Position numbers and translations under genes: made by a program
In this document: piece after piece, positions 494 to 18,106 of the stretch
How positions within the stretch are numbered: position 1 is the stretch's first letter
Layout: every line of letters starts with the position of its first letter
Notes under the pieces: generated by a model
The model's database searches: none
Seen by the model: only the letters and a program-made list of their open reading frames with translations
Told to the model about the DNA's origin: nothing
Source: Myxococcota bacterium
GTDB lineage: Bacteria; Myxococcota_A; UBA9160; UBA4427
Length of the DNA stretch: 33,115 bases
NCBI GenBank assembly: GCA_028284295.1
Contig: JANQSB010000528.1
Span: forward strand, 1-33,115
Direction: 5' to 3'

Positions 494-1693
494 CTAGCGC
501 GGGCGGATCGACGCCTCGCCAGCCTCGAAGAGGCCCTTCAGCTCACCGGCGTCGGCCTCGATCAAGCGCTCGACCCAGCGATGGAAGCGGTGACCCCCGC
601 CTTCGTTGCGACCGAAGAGCACCTCGTCGAGCGTGCCAGTGCGGAGCGCCTGCTGCTGACGCAGACCCGTCGCGTAGTCCTCCTCGCGCACGACGTACTC
701 CAGCAGGTCGATCTGCTTCTGTGCCTCGGCGCGCTGCGCCTCGTCCGGTTCGTTGGCCATCAGGTAGTTCTGCACGGTCACGCTCTCGCCCGGCGTGCTC
801 CCGGGGAAGAGCTGCGACAGCAGGACCCCGGGTCCGCCCGCGTCGAAGGTGGCGATGGAGACGTGCGGGAAGACGGTCCAGACCCCACCCATCAGGACCG
901 AGTCCGGCCACTCTTCCTCGCTCAGCTCGTCCATCTGCGCCAGCCCCGGATGCGGGGACGAGACGCGCTGATGGGGTCCCCAGGCGTAGTAGTGGGCCTG
1001 GTTGGGGAACTTCGGGCCGAAGGTCTCCTTGTGGAGGATCGGCAGGTGGTACAGGTCCAGATACCCGTCGTAGGCGATCTTCCAGTTCGGCCCCTCGACC
1101 GAACGCTGCGACACGAGGTGCCAGTCCTCGAAGTGGAAGTGCGCGAGCATTTCGTCGTAACCGCCCAGGAACACGTCGATATCGAGCTCGGCGGCGGGGT
1201 CGAGATGGACCCACACGAGGCCCGCCCGCTCGGCCACCGGCAGGCGGGTGAGCCCCAGGCAGGACTTGTCGACGTCTCCGAACTCCGAAGCCGAGAGGAT
1301 GCCGACCAGGGCCCCCTCGTCGTCGTAGGCCCAGGCGTGATAGGGACAGATGAAGCGGCGTGCCTTGCCGCCGCCCGTCGGCATCAGCTGGGCGCCCCGG
1401 TGGCTGCACAGGTTCACGAAGGCGCGCAGCTCGCCGTCCCGTGCCCGAGCGATCAGCACCGGCACTCCCAGCACCTCGAGGGCCTTGTAGCGACCGGGCT
1501 CGCGCAGCTCCGCGGTGGTGGCCAGCAGCAGCGGGACGCGACGGAAGATGCCGTCGATCTCGCGCCGCCAGCGGCCCTCGTCCCAGTAGTTCGAGGCCGG
1601 CACGCGGAACACCTCGGGCTCCAGCTCCTGGGTGCCCGCCTTCGCGTGGTCGACGCAGTGGCGCATCATCTCGATCAGGCGTTTTCGACTCAT
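494..1693 (-). CDS. Rieske [2Fe-2S] aromatic ring-hydroxylating dioxygenase, alpha subunit
   Basis: 399 aa; Rieske motif CSHRGAQL...CPYHAW and mononuclear iron site NWKIAYDGYLDLYHLPILH (DxxHx4H). Confidence 0.93.
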   Translation of the reverse strand: MSRKRLIEMMRHCVDHAKAGTQELEPEVFRVPASNYWDEGRWRREIDGIFRRVPLLLATTAELREPGRYKALEVLGVPVLIARARDGELRAFVNLCSHRGAQLMPTGGGKARRFICPYHAWAYDDEGALVGILSASEFGDVDKSCLGLTRLPVAERAGLVWVHLDPAAELDIDVFLGGYDEMLAHFHFEDWHLVSQRSVEGPNWKIAYDGYLDLYHLPILHKETFGPKFPNQAHYYAWGPHQRVSSPHPGLAQMDELSEEEWPDSVLMGGVWTVFPHVSIATFDAGGPGVLLSQLFPGSTPGESVTVQNYLMANEPDEAQRAEAQKQIDLLEYVVREEDYATGLRQQQALRTGTLDEVLFGRNEGGGHRFHRWVERLIEADAGELKGLFEAGEASIRPR

Positions 1694-1822
1694 CTCGCGG
1701 TCCTCGAGGTCTCGCTCACCGTGCCGAGTCTACCGCCCCGCCCCCCGGTCCGGCTGTGTCGGATCCACCGGACCGTTGGTCGTCTTCTCGCCCGACCTGC
1801 CTGTCGCTTGCTCAGTCGCGTC

Positions 1823-2641
1823 TCAGCTGGCCGCCTTCATCGAGCCGACGGTCTGCCCCTGGATCGAGCTGCCGTCCTCGCTGAGCAGCCGGCTCTGGGC
1901 GTGGGCCAGGTGGTGCATGTCGAACACCGCCTGCATGGCGTTCCACTGCCCCATCTGGTCGAGGGTGCGGTTCACCGACTGCTTGGCCATGCGCAGGCCG
2001 AAGGGGTCCATGCGCGCGATCTTGCCCGCGACCTCGTAGGCCTTCTCCTCGAGCTTCTCGCGCGGCACGACGTGGTTCACCATGCCCAGCCGATAGGCCT
2101 CCTGCGCGTCCAGGAACTCGCCCGTGAACAGGAACTCCTTGGCCTTGCGGGCCCCGAGCTCCCACGGGTGCGCGAAGTACTCGACGCCACCGACGCCCAT
2201 GCGCAGCACCGGATCGCTGAAGAGCGCGTCTTCCGAGGCCACGATCAGGTCCATCGGCCAGCACAGCATCAGCCCGCCCGCGATGCACTTGCCGTGAACC
2301 GCCGCGATGGTGGGCTTGGGCAGATCGCGCCAGCTCTTCGTCTTCTCCAGGTAGTGGATCTGCTCCCAGCCGTAGTGGGAGTGGATGCCCGTCGAAGGAT
2401 CGATGACGTCCTTGAAGAGCTTCGCGGACTCCGGGCTGATGTCGTGCCCCGCCGACCAGTGGGGACCGTTCGCCCGAACCACGATCACGCGCACCTCCTT
2501 GTCGTCGACGGCCCGGTGCAGGGCCTCGTCGAACTGCTCCAGGAAGGGAGGATGCTGGGCGTTGCGGGCATCGGGACGATCGAGGACCACCGTCGCGATG
2601 GCGCCGTCGGTCTCGTATTGGATGAAGCGTTCTTCGGACAT
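1823..2641 (-). CDS. Crotonase/enoyl-CoA hydratase superfamily protein (catalytic Glu pair apparently absent)
   Basis: 272 aa; KPTIAAVHGKCIAGGLMLCWPMDLIVASEDALFSDP crotonase core. Confidence 0.9.
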   Translation of the reverse strand: MSEERFIQYETDGAIATVVLDRPDARNAQHPPFLEQFDEALHRAVDDKEVRVIVVRANGPHWSAGHDISPESAKLFKDVIDPSTGIHSHYGWEQIHYLEKTKSWRDLPKPTIAAVHGKCIAGGLMLCWPMDLIVASEDALFSDPVLRMGVGGVEYFAHPWELGARKAKEFLFTGEFLDAQEAYRLGMVNHVVPREKLEEKAYEVAGKIARMDPFGLRMAKQSVNRTLDQMGQWNAMQAVFDMHHLAHAQSRLLSEDGSSIQGQTVGSMKAAS

Positions 2642-2659
2642 GGGGCTCCTCCTGCGCGG

Positions 2660-4885
2660 TCAGCTGCGACTGCGCGGCATGCCCAGACAGGCCTGGGCGA
2701 CGATGCTCTTCATGATCTCGCTGGTGCCACCGTAGATGGCCGTCGCGGTCGAGAGGCGATAGGCGAACTCCACCGCAGCGACGCCGGCCGCGAAGCCGTT
2801 GTCCGGCCCTCGCAGCAGCGAGTCGGGGGCGCACAGATCCATCAGGTCGCTGGCGTCCTCGATGTAGCGGTCGGTGGAGAAGAACTTGGAGAGCGGTCCG
2901 AGCCCGGGCTCGGCGATCCCCTCGGCCCCGACGAAGAGCGCGCGCTGCGAGATCGCCTCGACGAGCTCGGTGTGGATGGCCACCCGAGCGAGGCGGGCGC
3001 GGGTGGTGGAGTCGTCCATCGGGAGGCTGCCGTCCGAGCGGGGTGTTCGGGCCCACTCGACGGCGCCCGCCAGCAACCGGCGCATCCCCCCGGCTCCTCC
3101 CCCACCGTGCTCGAGCTCAAGCGCGTAGGCGATGACCGACCACCCCCCGTCCACTGGCCCGACCCGATAGCGGTCCGGGACGCGCACGTCGGTGTAGTAG
3201 GTGCAGTTGGTCCGCTCGTCCGAGAGGGTGTGGACGGGCTGGATCTCGATCCCCGACAGATCCAGCGGCAGCATGAACATGGTCAGTCCCTTGTGCTTGG
3301 GGACCTCGGTGTTGGTGCGGGTGAGCAGGAAGACGTACTGCGCCAGGTTCGCGCCGCTGGTGAACATCTTCTGACCGTTGATGATCCAGTCCTCTCCGTC
3401 GCGCACGGCGCGGGTCTGGGCGGCGGCCACGTCCGAGCCGGAGCCGGGCTCCGTATACCCGAGACTCGAGATGGCGTCGCCGCGGGCGATGCGCTGGATC
3501 ACCTCCTGCTTCAGCTCCTCGCTGCCGAAGCGCAGCACGGTCTGGGCCACCATGCCGGTCGTCGTGATCGCGTAGCGCGACCAGCCGTACTCGTCGAAGA
3601 CGCGCGAGAGCGCGACCATCTCGTAGCGACCCCGCCCCTGGCCTCCGTACTCGACCGGCCAGCTGGGGTAGAGCAGCCCGGCCTCGGCGAGCTTGCGCTG
3701 GAAGCCGGGATGGTGTCCCTCCCACGCGAAGTGCCGATGCTCGCGCAGCTCGTCGTTCATGTTCTCTTCGAAGAATCGCCGCGCACGCTCCCCGAACTCC
3801 TCGGCCTCGGGCGGGAGGCCGTAGTCGAGGTGGATCTCGCCGGGGTCCGGCAGGGCGACGGGTGCGGACTCCCCCCAGAGCCGCTCCGCGGCCACCTGCA
3901 GCTCTCGCTGGGGATCGCCGTACGGGAGCGGAAGCGACTTGCCCCGGCGGTGATAGAGCTGGATGTCGTACTCGAGCGACAGCCCGTAGCCGCCGTGGGT
4001 GTGGAGCGCTCGCGCCACCGCTCGACTCGCGGCCTCCGCGGCCCACGCGAAGCCCATGGAGATCCAGGCCGCCGCGGCGGGATGCTCGTTGGCGAGTGCC
4101 CAGACCGTGCGTCGCGCCAACAGCCGTGAGCCCTCGATGTCCGCCACGGAGTCGGCCAGCGGATGGGCGATGGCCTGGAAGGTCCCGATCGGGCGGTCGA
4201 ACTGGATGCGCTCGCTCGCGTAGCGGGCAGCCATCTCGAGCGCCTCCCGCCCGAGCCCGGCCAGCGCGGAGCCGACCAGCAGCTTCCACTCCTCGCGGGC
4301 CGCCTGGTATCGCGCCCGCGCCTCCGGACCCGAGTCGAGGAGCTCGCCGTCCGCGTCGTCGAGCTCCCAACGTCCGATCGGGTCCGAGCCCAGGTTCGCG
4401 ACCGCCTGCCGCTCGGGCTCGGCACGGGTCAGCAGGACGAGCTCGTCGCCACGCAGGCCGACGACCGCACTCGCGACGGCGCCACCGGGAATCCACTGGC
4501 CGGGCTGCCGGGCCAGGTCGTGCAGGGCGAACGAGACCACGGCCGCGCCGCTGCCGAGCCGCTCCAGCCAGGAAGCGGCCGCGTCCGACTCGCAGGCCGC
4601 CAGCACCCGGGCCGCGACGATCGCCTCGACGAGGGGCGACGCGGCCAGCTTGCGCCCCGCCTCTTCCGCCAGGATCACGGCATCCAGCAGGCTGGCACCG
4701 GCGCCACCGGCGGCTTCGGGCACCCGGATGACCAGGGCCCCGGTCTCGGCCAGCTGCTTCCAGAGCGCCGGGTCGAAGCCGAGGGGCTCGGCGGCCCGCA
4801 CCCGGGCCGGGCTCGACTCGACGGCGAAGAGCTGCGAGAAGGTGTCTCTCAGGAGCTCCTGCTCTTCGGTGGGATCGAGCTGCAC
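2660..4885 (-). CDS. Two-domain (tandem fused) acyl-CoA dehydrogenase, FadE34-like architecture
   Basis: Track ORF extends to 5110, but homology-like sequence starts at GTG 4885 (MQLDPTEEQELLRDTFSQLF). First ACAD module ends in HTHGGYGLSLEYDIQLYHRR; second module runs MNDELREHRHFAWEG...GYTEPGSGSD...YGGTSEIMKSI. Confidence 0.9.
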   Translation of the reverse strand: MQLDPTEEQELLRDTFSQLFAVESSPARVRAAEPLGFDPALWKQLAETGALVIRVPEAAGGAGASLLDAVILAEEAGRKLAASPLVEAIVAARVLAACESDAAASWLERLGSGAAVVSFALHDLARQPGQWIPGGAVASAVVGLRGDELVLLTRAEPERQAVANLGSDPIGRWELDDADGELLDSGPEARARYQAAREEWKLLVGSALAGLGREALEMAARYASERIQFDRPIGTFQAIAHPLADSVADIEGSRLLARRTVWALANEHPAAAAWISMGFAWAAEAASRAVARALHTHGGYGLSLEYDIQLYHRRGKSLPLPYGDPQRELQVAAERLWGESAPVALPDPGEIHLDYGLPPEAEEFGERARRFFEENMNDELREHRHFAWEGHHPGFQRKLAEAGLLYPSWPVEYGGQGRGRYEMVALSRVFDEYGWSRYAITTTGMVAQTVLRFGSEELKQEVIQRIARGDAISSLGYTEPGSGSDVAAAQTRAVRDGEDWIINGQKMFTSGANLAQYVFLLTRTNTEVPKHKGLTMFMLPLDLSGIEIQPVHTLSDERTNCTYYTDVRVPDRYRVGPVDGGWSVIAYALELEHGGGGAGGMRRLLAGAVEWARTPRSDGSLPMDDSTTRARLARVAIHTELVEAISQRALFVGAEGIAEPGLGPLSKFFSTDRYIEDASDLMDLCAPDSLLRGPDNGFAAGVAAVEFAYRLSTATAIYGGTSEIMKSIVAQACLGMPRSRS

Positions 4886-5006
4886 GGCGGATCCTTCCTG
4901 CCTTCTCCGTGCTCGCGTCCGGGCTCGCGCACCGACGCGTGCGGCCGCGGCCGGGAAGGCCCGGGACTTGTTACCCCAGGAGCGGAGACGGCTCAAACGC
5001 CGTCCC

Positions 5007-5441
5007 TCAGGCGTCGGAGTCGCCCCAGCCACCGGGAATCGCCGCGTCGACGGTGACGCGGCGATGCGCGAAGAGCCAACGGTCGTCGACGCAACGATAG
5101 ACGTCGACATAGCGACCCCAGTGGTCCAGCCCCCGGTCCGTCAGGGCCGCGTAGTAGCAGCGCCCGCTCGCCTGGAGCGGACCCTGGAGGTCGATCTGGT
5201 GGGTGGCCGTGAAGTGGCGGATGAGGCGGGCCGCTCCGGCGTCGCCCGTTCGCTCCGCGGCTCCGACGAAGACACTCCGGATTCCGGCACCCGTCTCGCG
5301 CCGACCGCCCGGAAGCTCCAGGACCGCGTCATCGGTGAAGAGCGCCAGCAGCTCGTCGAAGCGGCCGGCATCGCCGCTCGCGTTGTAGCGAGCCACGAGG
5401 TCGCGAATGGCCTCGCGCGCCGAGAGCTCCCAGTGCTCCAT
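5007..5441 (-). CDS. SnoaL/NTF2-like fold protein (nuclear transport factor 2 family)
   Basis: Start taken at ATG 5441 (MEHWELSAREAIRDLVARYNASGDAGRFDELLALFTDDAVLELPGG...), a typical SnoaL_4-like pattern; the track ORF is over-extended to 5564. Confidence 0.82.
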   Translation of the reverse strand: MEHWELSAREAIRDLVARYNASGDAGRFDELLALFTDDAVLELPGGRRETGAGIRSVFVGAAERTGDAGAARLIRHFTATHQIDLQGPLQASGRCYYAALTDRGLDHWGRYVDVYRCVDDRWLFAHRRVTVDAAIPGGWGDSDA

Positions 5442-5497
5442 GGGCTCGCGATGGAATCGCCGCGCCAGTAACGTGTCAAGCCGACCGGAGGCCGAGC

Positions 5498-6703
5498 GTG
5501 CCCGACCACCCCACTCGCGACGAGATCCGCCTGCTCGACGGAGCCTTCTACGTCGACCGTCCACTCGAGCACTACGCGTGGATGCGCGAGCACGCGCCGG
5601 TCTACTGGGACGCCCGGGACGAGGTCTGGGGCATCACCCTCTACGACGACATCATGTCGATCTCGAAGCAGCCCGAGCTCTTCGGCTCCGGCAAGGGCTC
5701 CCGCCCGGACAGCTGGACGCCGTCCATGATCAACATGGACGATCCCGAGCACAAGCGTCGGCGCAACCTGGTCAATCGCGGCTTCACGCCGCGCCGCCTG
5801 CGCGACCACGAGGCGAAGATCCGCGGCATCTGCAGCCGCCTCATCGACTCGGTGTGCGAGCGGGGCGAGTGCGAGTTCGTGCGCGAGATCGCGGCACCCC
5901 TGCCCCTGATCATGATCGGCGACATGCTGGGGATGCCGCCCGGGGACTTCGAGACCCTGCTGCGATGGTCCGAGACGATGCTGAAGGCGACCTCGAACAC
6001 CGCCACCGACGCCGACCGCGACGCCGCCATGCAGGCGGGTGCCGAGTACTTCGGATACGCGATGAAGGCGATCGAGGAGCGCAAGCAGGCTCCGACCGAC
6101 GACCTGGTCTCCGTGCTGGTGCACGCCGAGATCGAGGGGCGCGGCCTGAGCGACGACGAGATCGCGCACGAGTCGCTCCTGATTCTCGTCGGGGGCGACG
6201 AGACCACGCGACACGTGATCGTCGAGGGGGCCCTGGCCCTGATGCAGCACCCGGACCAGCGCCAGCAGCTGATCGCGGATCCCGCGAAGCTCCCGACCGC
6301 CGTCGAGGAGATGCTGCGCTGGGTCTCGCCCATCAAGAACATGAACCGCACGGCCACCCGGGACACCGAGCTGCGCGGGCAGACGATCCGCGAGGGCGAG
6401 CGGCTGCTGCTCCTTTACCCGTCCGGGAATCGCGACGCGAGCGCCTTCCCCGACCCCGACCGTTTCGACGTCGAGCGGACTCCGAACAACCACGTCGCGT
6501 TCGGCGGCTACGGAACACATCACTGCCTGGGCGCGAGCCTCGCCCGCCTGGAGCTGCGGATCCTCTTCGAGGAGCTGCTCTCGCGCATGCCGGACCTCGA
6601 GCTCGCGAGCGAGGACCCGTTGCCCCTGCGGCCTTCGAACTTCATCGTCGGCGTCGAGGAGATGCCGGTGCGCTTCACGCCCTCGGCGCCCTCCGGCTCC
6701 TGA
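5498..6703 (+). CDS. Cytochrome P450, CYP124/125/142-like
   Basis: 401 aa; I-helix GGDETT, ExxR in EEMLRW, heme loop HVAFGGYGTHHCLGASLARLEL. Confidence 0.95.
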   Translation: MPDHPTRDEIRLLDGAFYVDRPLEHYAWMREHAPVYWDARDEVWGITLYDDIMSISKQPELFGSGKGSRPDSWTPSMINMDDPEHKRRRNLVNRGFTPRRLRDHEAKIRGICSRLIDSVCERGECEFVREIAAPLPLIMIGDMLGMPPGDFETLLRWSETMLKATSNTATDADRDAAMQAGAEYFGYAMKAIEERKQAPTDDLVSVLVHAEIEGRGLSDDEIAHESLLILVGGDETTRHVIVEGALALMQHPDQRQQLIADPAKLPTAVEEMLRWVSPIKNMNRTATRDTELRGQTIREGERLLLLYPSGNRDASAFPDPDRFDVERTPNNHVAFGGYGTHHCLGASLARLELRILFEELLSRMPDLELASEDPLPLRPSNFIVGVEEMPVRFTPSAPSGS

Positions 6704-6718
6704 GGGAGCTGCGACCCG

Positions 6719-7591
6719 ATGCCGGACCTGATGGCGGACACCCGGGTCGAACGAGCCGAGCCTGGACACTACGCGGCGAGCCTGTCTCCCGACTGGGCGG
6801 TATGGGGCCCGAACGGCGGCTACCTGGCCGCCCTCGCCCTGCGAGCGGCCCTGGCCGAGAGCCGCCTGTCCCGACCCGCGAGCTTCCACTGTCACTTCCT
6901 GTCGGTCGGCGAGTTCGCTCCCGTCGTCCTCGAGGTCTCGCGACTCGGGGGCGGCCGACGGGCGGAATCGCTCCGGGTCGACGTGCGCCAGGGCGATCGG
7001 CTGCTGCTGGCCGCGACGGTCTGGACCGCGGACGAAGGCCTGCAGGGCTACCAGCACGAGGCCGCGACGGCCCCCGGCGTCCCGGGTCCCGATGCGCTGG
7101 AGAGCTACGGGACCCTCGCCGGGGACGAGTACGCGGAGTGGTATCCCATCTGGAGGAGCATCGAGGGCCGACCGGTGCGCTGGCGCGAGCCACCGGGCGA
7201 GCCCACCTGGCACTGCTGGCTACGCCTGACCGACACGCCCATCGAGAGCATCGAGGCCGATGCGGTCCGCCAGCTCTTCTGGTTGGACATGCCGGGCTGG
7301 AACGCGACGATCAGTGCCCACGCCTGGCCCTTTCCCTTCCTGACGCCGAACCTCGACCTGACCGTGCAGTTCCATCGCTTCGACACCGGCGTGGACTGGC
7401 TCCTGGCCGACGGCACGGTGCCGCTCGCCGTCGACGGGCTCGTCGGCTGTGTGTCCCGGGTGTGGACGCCCGACGGAAGGCTGCTGGCCACGGGCACGTC
7501 CAAGCACACCTGTCGGCCGAACCCGGGTTACGAACAGGAGCTCGAGCAGGCCCGGGCCCAGGGCCTGCTGCCAACGGATTCCGAACCCTGA
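6719..7591 (+). CDS. Acyl-CoA thioesterase, TesB-like double hotdog
   Basis: 290 aa; WAVWGPNGGYLAALALRAA... and C-terminal DWLLADGTVPLAVDGLVGCVSRVWTPDGRLLATGTSKHTCRP, typical of TesB-like thioesterase family proteins. Confidence 0.85.
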   Translation: MPDLMADTRVERAEPGHYAASLSPDWAVWGPNGGYLAALALRAALAESRLSRPASFHCHFLSVGEFAPVVLEVSRLGGGRRAESLRVDVRQGDRLLLAATVWTADEGLQGYQHEAATAPGVPGPDALESYGTLAGDEYAEWYPIWRSIEGRPVRWREPPGEPTWHCWLRLTDTPIESIEADAVRQLFWLDMPGWNATISAHAWPFPFLTPNLDLTVQFHRFDTGVDWLLADGTVPLAVDGLVGCVSRVWTPDGRLLATGTSKHTCRPNPGYEQELEQARAQGLLPTDSEP

Positions 7592-10538: not shown

Positions 10539-13500
10539 CTACCAGGTATCGACGTTGGGGCGCTTCTTGCCGCTGCGCGGTGCCGGCGGAGCCGCCGAGT
10601 CGAGCGCCGCCAGGATCCAGCGCCGCGAATCCACCGGGTCGATCACCTCGTCGATCTCGAAGTGCGAGGCCATGTTGACCGCCTTGCCGTGGGCGTACAT
10701 GCGATCGACCATCTCCTGGAAGAGCGCGCGGCGCTCTTCGGGGTCTTCGACGGCCTCGAGCTCCTTGCGGTAGCCGAGCTTCACGGCTCCCTCGAGCCCC
10801 ATTCCGCCGAACTCACCGGTGGGCCACGCGACAGTGAAGAGCGGGGCGTGGAAGCTGCCTCCCGCCATCGCCTGGGCGCCCAGGCCGTATCCCTTGCGCA
10901 GCACGATCGTGAAGAAGGGCACGCTCAGGTTCGCCCCCGTCACGAAGAGGCGCGAGCAGTGCCGCACCAGGCCCGTCTTTTCGACCTCCGGCCCCACCAT
11001 CATGCCCGGGGTGTCGCACAGGAAGAGCAGCGGCAGGTCGAAGGCATCACACAGCTGCATGAAGCGGGCCGCCTTGTCGGCCCCTTCACTGTCGATGGCC
11101 CCCGCCAGGTGGGTCGGGTTGTTGGCGACGATCCCCAAAGGACGCCCTTCCACGCGCGCGAGCGCGGTGACCATCCCGGGCCCGAACGCGCGGCGCAGCT
11201 CGAGCACGCTCCCGGTGTCGGCCAGGCCCTCGATCACCTTCCGGACGTCGTAGACGCGCAGGCGATTCTCCGGGACGGCGTGTCGCAGCGCGCGCTGATC
11301 CGCACAGCTCCAGGACTCCAGGGAGCCCTGGAAGTAGGACAGGTAGCGGCGGGCGACCGCGACGGCCTCCGCCTCGTCGGAGACCGGCAGGTCGACCACG
11401 CCGTTCGGGACCTGCACCGCCATGGCGCCGACCTCGTCGGGCCGGAAGACGCCCAGGCCACCTCCTTCGATCATGGCCGGGCCGCCCATCCCGATGTTCG
11501 AGTTCTCGGTGGCGATGACGACGTCGCAGCAACCGAGCAGCGCCGCGTTTCCCGCGAAGCAGCGACCCGAGTTGATGCCCAACAGCGGGACCAGCCCGCT
11601 CAGACGACCGAAGTAGTGGAAGGCCAGACAGTCCAGACCCGCGACTCCCGCCCCGTCCGTGTCGCCCGGGCGCCCTCCCCCGCCTTCGGTGAAGAAGACG
11701 ACCGGGAGTCGCTGCTGCTCGGCGATCTCGAAGAGCCGGTCCTTCTTGCGGTGGTTCTGCAGCCCCTGGGTACCCGCGAGTACCGTGTAGTCGTAGGAGA
11801 GAACCGCGCAGCGCGCGTCTCGGGGCCCGAACAGGTCGCCGTTGACCCGACCGATGCCCGAGACCAGGCCGTCGGCCGGCGTGTTCGCGACCAGGTCCTC
11901 GATCGCCCGGCGACGCCGCTGGGCGGCGATCACGAGCGACCCGTACTCGACGAAGCTGTCGGCGTCGCACAGGTCTTCGACGTTCTCGCGAGCCGTGCGC
12001 TGACCGGTCTTGCGCCTCCGCTCGACCGCCTGCGGGCGCGCCGCATCGCCGGTCGCAGCCAGTCGCTCTCGCAGCTCCTCGAGGTCGGGCCGCACCCGGG
12101 AGAGGTCGAGCGCCGCTTCCGGCGCGGCATCGCCCCGCGCGGCCTCGGTGGCCTCGATCCGCAGCAGCAGCGCGCCCTCGGCCACCGTGTCTCCCGCTGC
12201 GACGCAGACCTCGCGCACGACACCGTCCACCGGCGACTCGAGCACGTGCTCCATCTTCATGGCCTCGAGAACCGCCACGGCACCGCCCTGCCGGACGAGG
12301 TCCCCCACGGCCACCTCCAGCGTCGCCAGGGTGCCCTGCATGGGCGCCCGGACCGGCTGGCCGCTGCCGGGCGACTCCGTCGGCGCGGTCGGAGCTCGCG
12401 AGACCTCCGCGGAGCGTCCGTGCTCGAGCACCGCGAGCGGATCCTCGTCGTCCAGCCGCGCGCCCGTCGACCCCAGCGCGCGATCCGGTGGCGGCGCCAC
12501 CTCGGCATGCGCCGCAGCCGCCTCGACGAGCTCCGCGGCATGCCGCTCCACGAAGCGCGTGTCGACGCAGTCGGCCGCGACCTCCGGATGCGCGAGCAGC
12601 GCACGGAGGAAGGACGCATTCGTCTCGACGCCCCGAACGCCCAGCTCCCGCAGCGCCCGGTCGGCCCGACGCAGCAGCTCTCCATAGCGCGGAGTCGGAA
12701 CGTGGACGACGAGCTTGGCGAGGAGCGCGTCGAAGGCGGGGCTCGCCTCGTGCCCCGCGAAGGCCGCCGAGTCGACCCGGACGCCGGGACCCGTCGGCGG
12801 CTCCCAGGACTCGACCGTTCCGACTCTCGGGCGCACCGTGCCGTCCGGCTGCATGCTCTCGGTGTTGATCCGCAGCTGCATGGCCATGCCGCGAGGCACC
12901 GGGGGACGATCGGGATCCAGCCCCTGGTCCTCGAAGCGCTCGCCGGCGGCCAAGCGCAGCTGCAGCTGGACGAGGTCGACCCCGGACACCTCCTCGGTGA
13001 CCGTGTGCTCGACCTGCAGCCGGGGATTGGCCTCGATGAACGAGAAGGCGCTCGCGGACGGCTCCGCCCCGCCCTCCACCAGGAACTCGAAGGTGCCCAG
13101 ACTGCGGTAGTCCTCCGCCTTCGCCATACGCAGGGCGGCTCCCGTCAGCTGGTCCCGGAGCGCGTCCGACAGCCCGGGACTGGGCGCCAGCTCGACCAGC
13201 TTCTGGTGGCGCCGCTGCAGCGTGCACTCGCGCTCGCCGAGATGCATCACGCGGCCCGCACCGTCGCCGACGACCTGGACCTCGACATGACGCGCCGCGC
13301 GCACCAGCCTCTCGCAGTAGAGCGCCGGATTGCCGAAGGCGAGCTTCGCTTCGTGCTGGCAGCGCTCGAACGCGGACTCCAGCTCCCCGAGCTCCTCGAC
13401 CGCGCGCATCCCTCGGCCGCCGCCGCCCGCCACGGCCTTGAGGACCATCGCCTGGCCGGCCGGCAGGGACTCGAAGAAGGCACGCGCCTCGTCGAGCTCC

Positions 13501-13907
13501 ACGGCTCCGGAGCTGCCTCGAACCACCGGCACGTCGAGCCGCTGTGCCAGCCCGCGTGCCGACAGCTTGTCGCCGAAGAGCTCGAGCTGGACGGGGGTGG
13601 GACCCACGAACTGGACGCCCGCATCCTCGCAGGCACGCGCGAATGCGGAGCTCTCGCTCAGGAAGCCATAGCCGGGATGGAGCGCATCGCAGTCGGCGCG
13701 GCGTGCCGCCTCGACGACCTGGTCCACGTCCAGGTAGGCGCGGCCGCCGCGCCCGGGCAGGGCCACCGCCTCGCTCGCGAGCCGGACATGGAGGCTGTCC
13801 GCATCGTCCTCCGAGTGGATGGCCACGCCGCGAATCCCCAGCTCGTCGGCCGCACGCAGGACCCGGATCGCGATCTCCCCGCGATTGGCAACGAGCAGGC
13901 TCTTCAT
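10539..13907 (-). CDS. Single-chain acyl-CoA carboxylase (biotin carboxylase + BCCP + carboxyltransferase), long-chain/LCC-like
   Basis: 1122 aa; BC MKSLLVANRGEIAIRVLRA...GGGGRGMRAVE...FIEANPRLQVEHTVTEE; BCCP EAMKMEH; CT TEGGGGRPGDTDG...NSNIGMGGPAMIEGGGLG...CDTPGMMVGPEVE. Confidence 0.95.
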   Translation of the reverse strand: MKSLLVANRGEIAIRVLRAADELGIRGVAIHSEDDADSLHVRLASEAVALPGRGGRAYLDVDQVVEAARRADCDALHPGYGFLSESSAFARACEDAGVQFVGPTPVQLELFGDKLSARGLAQRLDVPVVRGSSGAVELDEARAFFESLPAGQAMVLKAVAGGGGRGMRAVEELGELESAFERCQHEAKLAFGNPALYCERLVRAARHVEVQVVGDGAGRVMHLGERECTLQRRHQKLVELAPSPGLSDALRDQLTGAALRMAKAEDYRSLGTFEFLVEGGAEPSASAFSFIEANPRLQVEHTVTEEVSGVDLVQLQLRLAAGERFEDQGLDPDRPPVPRGMAMQLRINTESMQPDGTVRPRVGTVESWEPPTGPGVRVDSAAFAGHEASPAFDALLAKLVVHVPTPRYGELLRRADRALRELGVRGVETNASFLRALLAHPEVAADCVDTRFVERHAAELVEAAAAHAEVAPPPDRALGSTGARLDDEDPLAVLEHGRSAEVSRAPTAPTESPGSGQPVRAPMQGTLATLEVAVGDLVRQGGAVAVLEAMKMEHVLESPVDGVVREVCVAAGDTVAEGALLLRIEATEAARGDAAPEAALDLSRVRPDLEELRERLAATGDAARPQAVERRRKTGQRTARENVEDLCDADSFVEYGSLVIAAQRRRRAIEDLVANTPADGLVSGIGRVNGDLFGPRDARCAVLSYDYTVLAGTQGLQNHRKKDRLFEIAEQQRLPVVFFTEGGGGRPGDTDGAGVAGLDCLAFHYFGRLSGLVPLLGINSGRCFAGNAALLGCCDVVIATENSNIGMGGPAMIEGGGLGVFRPDEVGAMAVQVPNGVVDLPVSDEAEAVAVARRYLSYFQGSLESWSCADQRALRHAVPENRLRVYDVRKVIEGLADTGSVLELRRAFGPGMVTALARVEGRPLGIVANNPTHLAGAIDSEGADKAARFMQLCDAFDLPLLFLCDTPGMMVGPEVEKTGLVRHCSRLFVTGANLSVPFFTIVLRKGYGLGAQAMAGGSFHAPLFTVAWPTGEFGGMGLEGAVKLGYRKELEAVEDPEERRALFQEMVDRMYAHGKAVNMASHFEIDEVIDPVDSRRWILAALDSAAPPAPRSGKKRPNVDTW

Positions 13908-14037
13908 CGGGACGGCTCACCTCCATGGACGGAACCCGGCGCGGATCCGAAGCGCGCCCCATGGTTGCAGGCCCTTCCGCGATCCGCGATCGCGCCAGCC
14001 CGGTCGACTCCCGGGCAGCTTCGAGTCGGAATGTCCG

Positions 14038-14072
14038 ATAATATTACGTTCTACTCAGAAACGTAATGTACT
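14038..14072. promoter_or_regulatory. Putative TetR operator and divergent promoter region: ATTACGTT-N9-AACGTAAT (14043..14050 / 14060..14067)
   Basis: Perfect 8-bp inverted repeat with 9-bp spacer in an AT-rich patch between the carboxylase and TetR genes. Confidence 0.7.
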
Positions 14073-14094
14073 GTCCCGAAGTCTGGAATTCGAG

Positions 14095-14667
14095 TTGAAC
14101 GTCGACACCCGGCAAGCGTCGGTCCTCCGGGATGGAGCGCGCCAGCGACTGCTCGCCGCTGGCGAACGCTGCGCACTCCGCAACGGCTCGCTGCGGATCC
14201 GGATCGCAGACGTGGCCCGCGAGGCCGGCGTCAGTCGCCCCACGGTCTACCGCCACTTCGAGGACGCCGACGCGCTCCGACGAGACACGGCAGAGCGACT
14301 CGCCGCACAGCTGGCGCTCGCGCTCGTCGCGGCCCGGATCGTCCACGCGGACCCGGCGCGGGCGGTCGTCGAGACGGTCCTGGCCTGGATCGGCCTGCTG
14401 GCTCGCGATCCCCGTCTCGAGCTTCTCGCGCGCGAGCGCCCCGAGGCGCTCACGACGCCGGCCTTCTTCGCCGCGCTGGCGCCGAGCCTGCCCGAGCTGC
14501 CCACGACCCCGTCCGTGCCCGGGGACGAGAGCACCGAGCTGGCGCTCCGCCTCGCCCTCTCCTTCGCGGGAGCTCCCCGAGTCCGGCAGGACGAGGCTGC
14601 ACTGCGCGGCCTGCTGATGCGACGCTTGCTTCCGGCCCTCGGCCTGCAGAAGCCCCGAACGAGATAG
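14095..14667 (+). CDS. TetR/AcrR family transcriptional regulator
   Basis: 190 aa from TTG 14095; HTH LRIRIADVAREAGVSRPTVYRHFEDADAL. Confidence 0.88.
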   Translation: MNVDTRQASVLRDGARQRLLAAGERCALRNGSLRIRIADVAREAGVSRPTVYRHFEDADALRRDTAERLAAQLALALVAARIVHADPARAVVETVLAWIGLLARDPRLELLARERPEALTTPAFFAALAPSLPELPTTPSVPGDESTELALRLALSFAGAPRVRQDEAALRGLLMRRLLPALGLQKPRTR

Positions 14668-14724
14668 CTCCGGCGACATAGCCCACGACGCAAATCGCAC
14701 TATCGTCGGTGCCCGGGAGGCCAG

Positions 14725-15711
14725 GTGTCCGACGGACTGCTGCTCGTGATCGGGCTGATGCTCCTGCTCGGCGGGGGAGAAGCCGTCGTGCGCGGTGCGG
14801 CATCGCTGGCGCGCACGATGGGCATCTCGAACCTCGCCATCGGGCTGCTGGTGGTCGCGTTCGGAACCAGCGCACCCGAGCTGGCCGTGAACGTCACGGC
14901 GGCCTTCAGCAACGAGACGGACCTCTCCTTCGGGAACATCGTCGGGTCGAACATGGCCAACGTCGGCATGGTCGTGGGAATCTGCGGCCTGATCCGCGCG
15001 TTGCAGATCGACAGCGTCGTCGTCTCGCGCGAGATCCCGATGATGCTGCTCGCCACGGTCGCGACCATCGTGATGGCCGCGGACACGGTGGTCGACGGCG
15101 AGCCGCCGCGCTTCGACCGCGGCGACTCGATCATCATGATGCTCTTCTTCGGGGTCTTCATCTACTACACGGTCGGGGAGCTGCTCCGCCAACGCACCGA
15201 ACACCCGACCCTGGAAGAGCTCGTGGCCAGCGAGCTTCCGGGCGTTGGTCCCAAGGTCACCGCCGCGCGCGACGTGCTCGTCACCCTCGCCGGCTTCGGC
15301 GCCCTGCTCTCGGGTGCGAACCTCACGGTCGACGCGGCCGTCGAGCTCGCGCGGATCTACGGCGTACCGGAGGTGGTGATCGGAATCAGCGTGGTCGCCA
15401 TCGGAACCAGCCTGCCCGAGCTCGCCACGGGCATCATGGCCACGCTCCGGGGCCACATGGAGATCGCGATCGGGAACGTGATCGGGTCGAACATCTTCAA
15501 CCTGCTCTTCGTGCTCGCGGCCACGGTCTTCGTCCGCCCGCTCGAGATTCCCAAGTGGGGGATGCTCGATCTCTTCGTCTCGGCCATGCTCTCGCTCGCC
15601 CTGCTGGTGGTGTCGATGTCCGCCGGCCGGCGGATCCTGCGCGCCGAATCCGCCCTGCTGGTCGTGATCTACCTCAGCTACGCGACCTGGCGGGCCGGCT
15701 GGGCGAACTGA
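14725..15711 (+). CDS. Calcium/sodium antiporter, CaCA family (YrbG-like)
   Basis: 328 aa; two alpha-repeats, FGTSAPELAVNVTAAF...GNIVGSNMANVG and IGTSLPELATGI...GNVIGSNIFNLL; GTG start with GGGAGG upstream. Confidence 0.93.
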   Translation: MSDGLLLVIGLMLLLGGGEAVVRGAASLARTMGISNLAIGLLVVAFGTSAPELAVNVTAAFSNETDLSFGNIVGSNMANVGMVVGICGLIRALQIDSVVVSREIPMMLLATVATIVMAADTVVDGEPPRFDRGDSIIMMLFFGVFIYYTVGELLRQRTEHPTLEELVASELPGVGPKVTAARDVLVTLAGFGALLSGANLTVDAAVELARIYGVPEVVIGISVVAIGTSLPELATGIMATLRGHMEIAIGNVIGSNIFNLLFVLAATVFVRPLEIPKWGMLDLFVSAMLSLALLVVSMSAGRRILRAESALLVVIYLSYATWRAGWAN

Positions 15712-16158
15712 GTGCCGGTGCCGCCGCGAACGGGGCGCTGCCTGTGTGAGGCCGTTCGCTACGAGCTGGGCGAAGAGCCCGGTCCGGTGGTGAACTGCCA
15801 CTGCCAGTTCTGCCGCCGGGCGCACGGGGCCGCGTTCGCCACGGTCGCCATGGTGCCGACCGCCTCCTTCCGGCTGACCCACGGAGCGGACGCGCTGCAC
15901 GAGCGCGTGACCGAAGGTGTCGGCTGCCGCGCCTTCTGCATTCGCTGTGGGACCCGGATCTACAATCGCCCCGAGTCCGCTGGCGGAATCACGATGCTGG
16001 TGGTGGCCAGCCTCGACGACCCGAGCGGGCTCGCGCCGGTCATGCACGTCAACGTCGAGTCGAAGGCGCCCTGGTACGAGATCCGCGACGAGCTGCCCCG
16101 CTTCCCCGGACTGCCGCCCGGAAGCGAAGCGGCCCTCGACCGGGGTCGCGACGTCTAG
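15712..16158 (+). CDS. GFA (glutathione-dependent formaldehyde-activating-like) zinc-binding family protein
   Basis: 148 aa; GRCLCEAVRYEL...NCHCQFCRRAHGAAFAT...FCIRCGTRIY. GTG start directly abuts the TGA of the antiporter. Confidence 0.9.
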   Translation: MPVPPRTGRCLCEAVRYELGEEPGPVVNCHCQFCRRAHGAAFATVAMVPTASFRLTHGADALHERVTEGVGCRAFCIRCGTRIYNRPESAGGITMLVVASLDDPSGLAPVMHVNVESKAPWYEIRDELPRFPGLPPGSEAALDRGRDV

Positions 16159-17062
16159 AGCTTCGATTGCAGCCAGTCGAGGGTGCGACGGTCCGCGCCC
16201 TCCTCGAGCGGCATGATGGCGGCGTTGAAGTCGGTCACGCCGACCTCGCGCAGCCGCTCGAGCTGATCGTCCAACGCACTCTCGTCGCCCACCATGGCGA
16301 TGTCCTCGGGGCCCTGGACCCCTTCGCGGTCGAGCATGGCGCGATAGGAAGGCAGGGTGCCGTACATCTCGATGGCCTTGGCGATCCGATCGCGCACGGT
16401 GTCGCGATCGTCGGTCACCACGATCGGGAAGCCCGCGACGATCCGCGGTGCGGGACGATCGGCGTCCCGCGCGGCCGCACCCAGACGCGGCGCGATGTGG
16501 CTCTCGATCGTCTTCGGGCCGGTCATCCAGAGGATGCTGCCGTCGCTCAGGGCCCCGGCGACCTCGAGCATCCGCTCGCCGAGCGCAGCGACCAACACCG
16601 GCACGGGGTCGGCGTCGGGGACCTGGAGCCCTCCGGCGACCCGGAAGAGGCTGCCCTGGAATCCCGCCGGCTCCCCCCGCAGGAGCGGGTTCAGCACCGA
16701 CAGGTACTCGCGCATGTGCAGCGCGGGCTTCTCGTAGGAGAGGCCCATCATGGACTCGATCACGACCTTGTGGGACAGCCCGATTCCCAGGCGGAAACGC
16801 CCCTTCGAGGCCGCCTGGGTGGTCAACGCGAGCTGGGCCATGGCCATCGGGTGCCGCGGATAGGTGGGCACCACCGCCGTACCGAGCTCGATGCGCTCGG
16901 TCTCCCGGCCCACGAGGCCCATCGCCGAGATCGCGTCGAGGCCGAAGATGTTCGCCATCCAGATGCTCGCGAAGCCGCGCGCCTCGAGCTCGCGACAGTG
17001 CGCGATCAATCCGTCGACGCTGCCTTCGGGACCGCTCGAGGCACCGCACATGACACCGATTC

Positions 17063-17066
<4 letters not shown>
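16155..17066 (-). CDS. LLM class F420-dependent oxidoreductase (luciferase-like)
   Basis: 303 aa; N-terminal MRIGVMCGASSG..., LGTAVVPTYPRHPMAMAQLALTTQAASKGRFRLGIGLSHK. Confidence 0.88.

Positions 17067-18106
<1,040 letters not shown>

Follow-up and report, generated by a model that had tools for sequence, protein, structure and literature searches.

Terminal oxidation of the sterol side chain by CYP125 and CYP142 is treated as an actinobacterial trait, and the question raised by the locus described here is whether a gene block in an uncultured deltaproteobacterial lineage may start on such side chains in a similar way. The locus lies at positions 494 to 7591 of the window, the whole 33,115-nucleotide stretch that was analysed, which constitutes an entire contig (G000:C355; JANQSB010000528.1) of a metagenome-assembled genome (MAG) of a Myxococcota bacterium (GCA_028284295.1; 5.85 Mb, 718 contigs, 90% complete). 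It combines a cytochrome P450, a fused two-domain acyl-CoA dehydrogenase (ACAD), an enoyl-CoA hydratase (ECH), a Rieske oxygenase, a SnoaL_4 protein and a thioesterase. The block appears to serve as a front end for breaking down sterol-like side chains, through CYP142-family oxidation followed by the action of the ACAD and ECH on the acyl-CoA, a reading to which we assign a probability of about 0.55. In a genome survey of 2016 no CYP125/142 orthologs were found in Proteobacteria, and the failure of Proteobacteria on cholesterol was put down to that absence (PMC4810484).

The gene inventory given by the original prediction, which was made from the sequence alone, was borne out in full, with all six genes recovered at 494-7591 by codon-usage gene calling and Pfam/NCBIfam comparison. 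The six genes are indeed adjacent, but rather than one run they form two divergent units, with the SnoaL_4, ACAD, ECH and Rieske genes reading leftward and the P450 and thioesterase genes reading rightward:

494..1693, minus strand: Rieske non-heme iron oxygenase alpha subunit, 399 amino acids (Pfam Rieske and Ring_hydroxyl_A)
1823..2641, minus strand: PRK08290-type ECH, 272 amino acids (NF006140, 381.7 bits against a cutoff of 280)
2660..4885, minus strand: fused two-domain ACAD, 741 amino acids, GTG start (Pfam, gene call and alignment)
5007..5441, minus strand: SnoaL_4/NTF2-fold protein, 144 amino acids (Pfam PF13577, E 1e-21)
5442..5497, no strand: divergent intergenic region between the two units, 56 bp (gene coordinates)
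5498..6703, plus strand: cytochrome P450 of the CYP142 clade, 401 amino acids, GTG start (best PDB match CYP142A2, 2yoo; trees)
6719..7591, plus strand: 4HBT_3/TesB-fold acyl-CoA thioesterase, 290 amino acids (Pfam PF13622 and PF20789; TIGR00189, 41 bits against a cutoff of 293)

Both promoters of the divergent units would sit within the 56-bp gap at 5442-5497.

The P450 and the CYP142 clade

Reference P450s and ACADs were defined by synteny on the KstR-regulon contig of a Mycobacterium (G080:C55; L262, L302-L306), the gene names of which are our own assignments from gene order and length together with established knowledge. The gene we take to be CYP142 sits among what are presumably fadE26-fadE27-fadD17, fadD19 and echA19, and the presumed CYP125 adjoins genes taken to be fadE28/29, chsH, ltp2 and fadA5. 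The best PDB matches of the window P450 are all CYP142 enzymes, with CYP142A2 (2yoo) at the top, and it shares 52% identity with the syntenic CYP142 as against 34% with the syntenic CYP125. In the phylogenetic tree the window P450, its orthologs in the order, CYP142 and the P450s of Ca. Hopanoidivorans make up a single clade of 22 rows (bootstrap 100, SH-aLRT 97), outside which both CYP125 and CYP124 fall. A larger tree, where the sequence representing CYP124 clustered with three mycobacterial P450s, agrees. Among 135 positions that are diagnostic between CYP142 and CYP125, the window P450 agrees with the former at 69 and with the latter at 27. Orthology to CYP125 was rejected on the basis of the 34% identity and the position outside the CYP125 clade, and orthology to CYP124 on the basis of the position outside the CYP124 group. 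By convention, P450s of one family share >40% identity and those of one subfamily >55%; at 52%, the window P450 passes the family threshold for CYP142 and falls short of the subfamily threshold. As judged from these comparisons, the window P450 is a member of the CYP142 clade. The relation to terminal-methyl P450s proposed by the original prediction can thus be retained, though with CYP142 and not with CYP125, which it had named. By analogy with CYP142, the enzyme may oxidise a sterol-like lipid at the terminal methyl of its isoprenoid chain.

One further gene of the window has a counterpart in the mycobacterial CYP142 neighbourhood:

17063..18106, minus strand: LLM flavin/F420 oxidoreductase, Rv3520c subfamily (TIGR03559, 388 bits against a cutoff of 335)

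Its product is 46% identical to that of the CYP142-adjacent gene in the mycobacterial locus L262. The mycobacterial gene lies two genes from CYP142 and the window copy ~10 kb from the block, of which it is a possible partner. An 84% homolog of the window oxidoreductase is also encoded near the P450 ortholog of another genome (G005, L105).

The fused acyl-CoA dehydrogenase and its neighbours

The start of the ACAD required correction. Homology to the protein of the genus-mate, a second species of the genus represented by a 98% complete MAG (G040; block locus L054), begins at residue 76 of the 816-residue form predicted from ATG 5110, and this longer form overlaps the SnoaL gene, so that GTG 4885 (741 amino acids) is the more likely start. 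The N half of the protein resembles non-catalytic subunits (FadE27/32/33; 33% identity to FadE33 and 28% to FadE27), while the C half resembles catalytic subunits such as FadE26 (33%). Glu592 of the window ACAD, which lines up with the catalytic Glu of FadE26, is a candidate catalytic base.

The original prediction had likened this protein to FadE34/ChsE3, with which it shares the fused architecture and a similar length. It is nevertheless highly improbable that it is orthologous to FadE34/ChsE3 and works on the C5 stage of the side chain. Identity to the true FadE34, defined as the fused ACAD adjoining kstR in Mycobacterium (L306), amounts to 28%, and in a C-domain tree the two proteins fall in well-supported separate clades. 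The window ACAD clusters among 31 sequences, comprising fused ACADs of this order, sphingomonads, Burkholderia, Acidocella and Verrucomicrobia, near split pairs of Mycobacterium and Frankia, while FadE34 groups with a paralog from this very MAG. A joint clade of the two groups was rejected by the approximately unbiased (AU) test (p 5e-8), and FadE34/ChsE3 orthology was rejected on these grounds of identity, clade and test, leaving general ACAD homology only. The MAG's own FadE34-clade ACAD (40% to FadE34) is encoded at G000:C22 (L275), close to another P450. Fused ACADs of Dietzia (L150, L184; with FadE29) and Halieaceae (L156-L178) lie in still other clades, and the two-domain fusion therefore arose repeatedly; a fused two-domain ACAD is no marker for FadE34. 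Branching of the ACAD and P450 far from the steroid clades was what the original prediction had named as its refutation; in the trees the ACAD branches in this way, whereas the P450 does not.

Sphingomonad genes related to the window ACAD are repeatedly found close to PRK08290-type hydratases (44-55% identity to the window ECH), which suggests that the ACAD-hydratase pair forms a functional core. The closest non-actinobacterial relatives of the ACAD outside the order are found in sphingomonad clusters together with Baeyer-Villiger monooxygenase (BVMO)-like oxygenases, hydrolases, a CoA ligase or AtuA-like genes, with no steroid ring genes beside them. Catabolism of tomato steroidal alkaloids was considered for the relatives in the Sphingobium TomTYG strains, the clusters of which hold BVMO-like, hydrolase and ligase genes, and no claim is made. 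On plasmid pBSY17_1 of Sphingobium sp. RAC03, a culturable strain, a P450-ferredoxin-short-chain dehydrogenase/reductase (SDR)-fused ACAD-hydratase cluster (12380-18023; L293) lies beside a thiolase/OB-fold pair, and offers a tractable place to learn the role of this ACAD clade. Amidohydrolase-like proteins are repeatedly encoded next to relatives of the window ACAD (L123, L269, L260, L293-L295), and also near CYP142-clade P450s in G020 and Ca. Hopanoidivorans (L101, L264).

The Rieske protein bears a distant likeness to GbcA/CntA and benzoate-type oxygenases, with GbcA as its best NCBIfam match (96 bits against a cutoff of 670) and carnitine monooxygenase (6y9c) as its best PDB match, and an ortholog was found only in the genus-mate (78%). 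Identification of this protein as KshA was rejected, with KshA structures in the PDB matching only at E 1e-4 and no match of >=36% in a KshA-containing reference set. The best PDB matches of the ECH are 3t3w/3ome, and the SnoaL_4 protein is 39% identical to a mycobacterial protein encoded near a P450/ACAD cluster (L267).

In the proposed mechanism, the P450 would hydroxylate an isoprenoid side chain at its terminal methyl and oxidise this group to the carboxylate, as the clade of the enzyme suggests, and the resulting acid would be activated by a CoA ligase encoded elsewhere. The ACAD-ECH pair would probably take this acyl-CoA further through a beta-oxidation step. Judging from the alignment, the fused ACAD would form the alpha,beta-unsaturated acyl-CoA by means of a structural N half and a C half with FAD and the Glu592 base, and the PRK08290-type hydratase next door would then hydrate it. 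The thioesterase and SnoaL_4 protein may be accessory, and the Rieske oxygenase may oxidise the same class of substrate. Ring carbon would end in the methylhexahydroindanedione propanoate (HIP) pathway (IpdABC-EchA20-FadE30/31/32), the genes of which are found in the same genomes.

Conservation of the block and steroid genes elsewhere

All evidence for the two members of the genus derives from MAGs, and counts at the order level refer to 80 genomes of the window genome's order. Synteny in relatives had been named as a check by the original prediction. In the genus-mate the genes follow one another in the same order, Rieske-ECH-ACAD-SnoaL-P450 (78, 88, 77, 69 and 84% amino acid identity, respectively), although the thioesterase is absent at this place, where a glycoside-hydrolase-like gene and another hydratase are found instead, and an additional Rieske gene separates the Rieske gene from that for ECH. 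The five conserved genes, for which the nonsynonymous rate (dN) is well below the synonymous rate (dS) between the two species, are under purifying selection. Because the same order is kept in a second species and dN is well below dS, the neighbourhood is taken not to be a product of chance. Strong homologs of the P450 (E <= 1e-140) occur in 41/80 genomes of the order, and those of the fused ACAD (E <= 1e-150) in 10/80. A flank of phosphoenolpyruvate carboxykinase (PEPCK), glutathione S-transferase (GST) and carboxylase genes follows the block in both species. Window positions 10539-13907 encode a single-chain acyl-CoA carboxylase (BC-BCCP-CT, 1122 amino acids), with the long-chain acyl-CoA carboxylase 4rcn (1097 bits) as its best solved relative, while Rfam and tRNA scans of the window returned no matches.

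Elsewhere in this MAG, an ipdABC-echA20-fadE31-fadE32-DUF35-thiolase cluster (G000:C10, L276, 1296-7106), with the ipd, echA20 and fadE genes in a single operon, shows 61% (ipdA), 52% (ipdB), 51% (ipdC), 50% (echA20) and 51% (fadE31) identity to Mycobacterium. IpdA is also present in the genus-mate, where a full HIP cluster lies on the same contig as the block, ~50 kb away (G040:C39, L331 7279 to L332 4658), and adds FadA6, an Rv3548-like SDR, a FadE33-like protein, IpdF, FadE30 and FadD3; of its proteins FadD3, EchA20, FadA6 and IpdF score above their NCBIfam cutoffs. The IpdABC-EchA20-FadE31/32 enzymes degrade HIP, the C/D-ring remnant (methyl-hydrindane) of steroids (PMC5380842). Further contigs of the MAG encode FadE26/27-type pairs (50-58%), the FadE34-clade ACAD and an EchA19-like protein, while the Ltp2-like thiolases beside HIP clusters are weak matches (29-32%). 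The claim that the block is a non-actinobacterial relative of the mycobacterial side-chain pathway keeps its direction, given the CYP142-clade P450, the HIP genes and these FadE26/27-, FadE34- and EchA19-like proteins, but loses its original grounds of CYP125 and FadE34.

Within the order, ipdA is present in 64/80 genomes and HsaC-like proteins, mostly at 35-44% identity, in 22/80; by these counts the known A/B-ring route appears much rarer than C/D-ring catabolism. Of the genomes with a strong P450 homolog, 38/41 have ipdA, versus 26/39 of those lacking one (Fisher p 0.005, uncorrected for shared ancestry). HsaC-HsaA-HsaD clusters were observed in the four order genomes examined for them (G059, G070, G020 and G056), among them the loci L396 (G059:C20, with HsaF/G too), L398 (G070:C136) and L406 (G020:C267). 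In another phylum, the sponge symbiont Ca. Hopanoidivorans cymbastelae (Acidimicrobiales; G085; L264, L333) combines a CYP142-clade P450 with ipdABC, as does the window genome.

Several results weigh against a role in sterol side-chain catabolism. With the protein of the mycobacterial locus as query, HsaC gave no match at E <= 1e-10 in this MAG, in its genus-mate or in two other relatives, and an approximate query 90% identical to it gave the same negative for the MAG and genus-mate. In these two genomes, KstD likewise gave no match at E <= 1e-20 and no KshA ortholog was found among matches of 27-33% (best in the MAG, 33%), with positive controls recovered in all of these searches. The absence of these markers from MAGs that are 90% and 98% complete is strong but not final evidence. 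Since HsaC and KstD were not found and the KshA matches reach only 27-33%, a steroid substrate can only be inferred. The ECH and Rieske proteins match no mycobacterial regulon gene beyond ~30%, and we know of no characterised member of the clade of the window ACAD. No ferredoxin, thiolase or CoA ligase is encoded within the six-gene block, as the original prediction had stated. Outside the genus, the P450 and fused ACAD were never neighbours in the neighbourhoods examined.

The missing A/B-ring markers in the MAG and genus-mate would also suit action of the block on another branched isoprenoid (a hopanoid, triterpenoid, sesqui/diterpenoid or phytol-like acid) and not a sterol, with a P450 directed at another terminal-methyl substrate and HIP genes belonging to a different or shared polycyclic route. 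This is rather doubtful. The sphingomonad relatives of the ACAD do lie in clusters without adjoining steroid ring genes, and Ca. Hopanoidivorans, in which HsaC and KstD were not found, has both a CYP142-clade P450 and ipdABC; however, true hsaACD genes are present in some related genomes of the order, and in characterised cases the substrate of ipdABC-echA20-fadE31/32 is the methyl-hydrindane of HIP (PMC5380842). It is unlikely, too, that the P450-thioesterase unit and the Rieske-ECH-ACAD-SnoaL unit are accidental neighbours serving different substrates. In favour of accident, the neighbours of P450 orthologs elsewhere in the order vary and never include the fused ACAD, the genus-mate has no thioesterase at this place, and a MAG rich in P450s (~40 places) and ACADs (91 matches) makes chance meetings likely. 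Against it, the divergent layout is shared by both species of the genus although the rest of the region is not the same in them, a second Rieske gene and a glycoside-hydrolase-like gene having been inserted.

Beyond the preferred reading of the block as a front end for the breakdown of sterol-like side chains, a broader and more tentative picture may be drawn of an order of uncultured bacteria with a near-universal HIP pathway and often a CYP142-clade P450, most members of which lack the known 9,10-seco A/B-ring enzymes. Such bacteria might open the A/B rings by an undescribed route, import steroids that other bacteria have part-degraded (e.g. HIP) or channel a different polycyclic lipid into the HIP pathway, and the block would belong to that front end. 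The patchy A/B-ring genes raise the question of what feeds HIP in these genomes, and, with HIP nearly universal and a CYP142 branch spread across this uncultured deltaproteobacterial order, more bacteria come into view as likely consumers of sterols.

Comparison with known systems

Of the aerobic 9,10-seco route of cholesterol catabolism, the MAG and genus-mate share the HIP gene set, while HsaC, KstD and an orthologous KshA were not found. Compared with the HIP pathway of the KstR2 regulon of M. tuberculosis, the MAG has ipdA, ipdB, ipdC, echA20, fadE31 and fadE32, and the genus-mate also fadA6, fadE30, fadD3 and ipdF, in one cluster, with the differences that these genes lie outside the window and are not accompanied by the three A/B-ring markers. 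FadE34/ChsE3 resembles the window ACAD in carrying two ACAD domains in one chain of similar length, but belongs to another clade at 28% identity, the fusion in the window ACAD being apparently independent. The closest solved structures are those of the heteromeric steroid ACADs FadE26-FadE27 (ChsE4-ChsE5) and Tcur3483-Tcur3481, to the two subunits of which the halves of the window ACAD align, with the catalytic Glu in register; the window protein differs in being fused, with the FadE27-like half first, and in its identity of ~33% for the C half and 28% for the N half. The closest likeness of the P450 is to CYP142, the steroid C26-monooxygenase (M. tuberculosis Rv3518c and M. smegmatis CYP142A2). 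The window P450 differs from it in lacking adjacent FadD19/EchA19, in occurring in an uncultured deltaproteobacterial lineage and in its <55% identity, but shares its clade at 52% identity, keeps the heme-ligand and I-helix acid-threonine motifs, and likewise has an Rv3520c-subfamily oxidoreductase in its neighbourhood.

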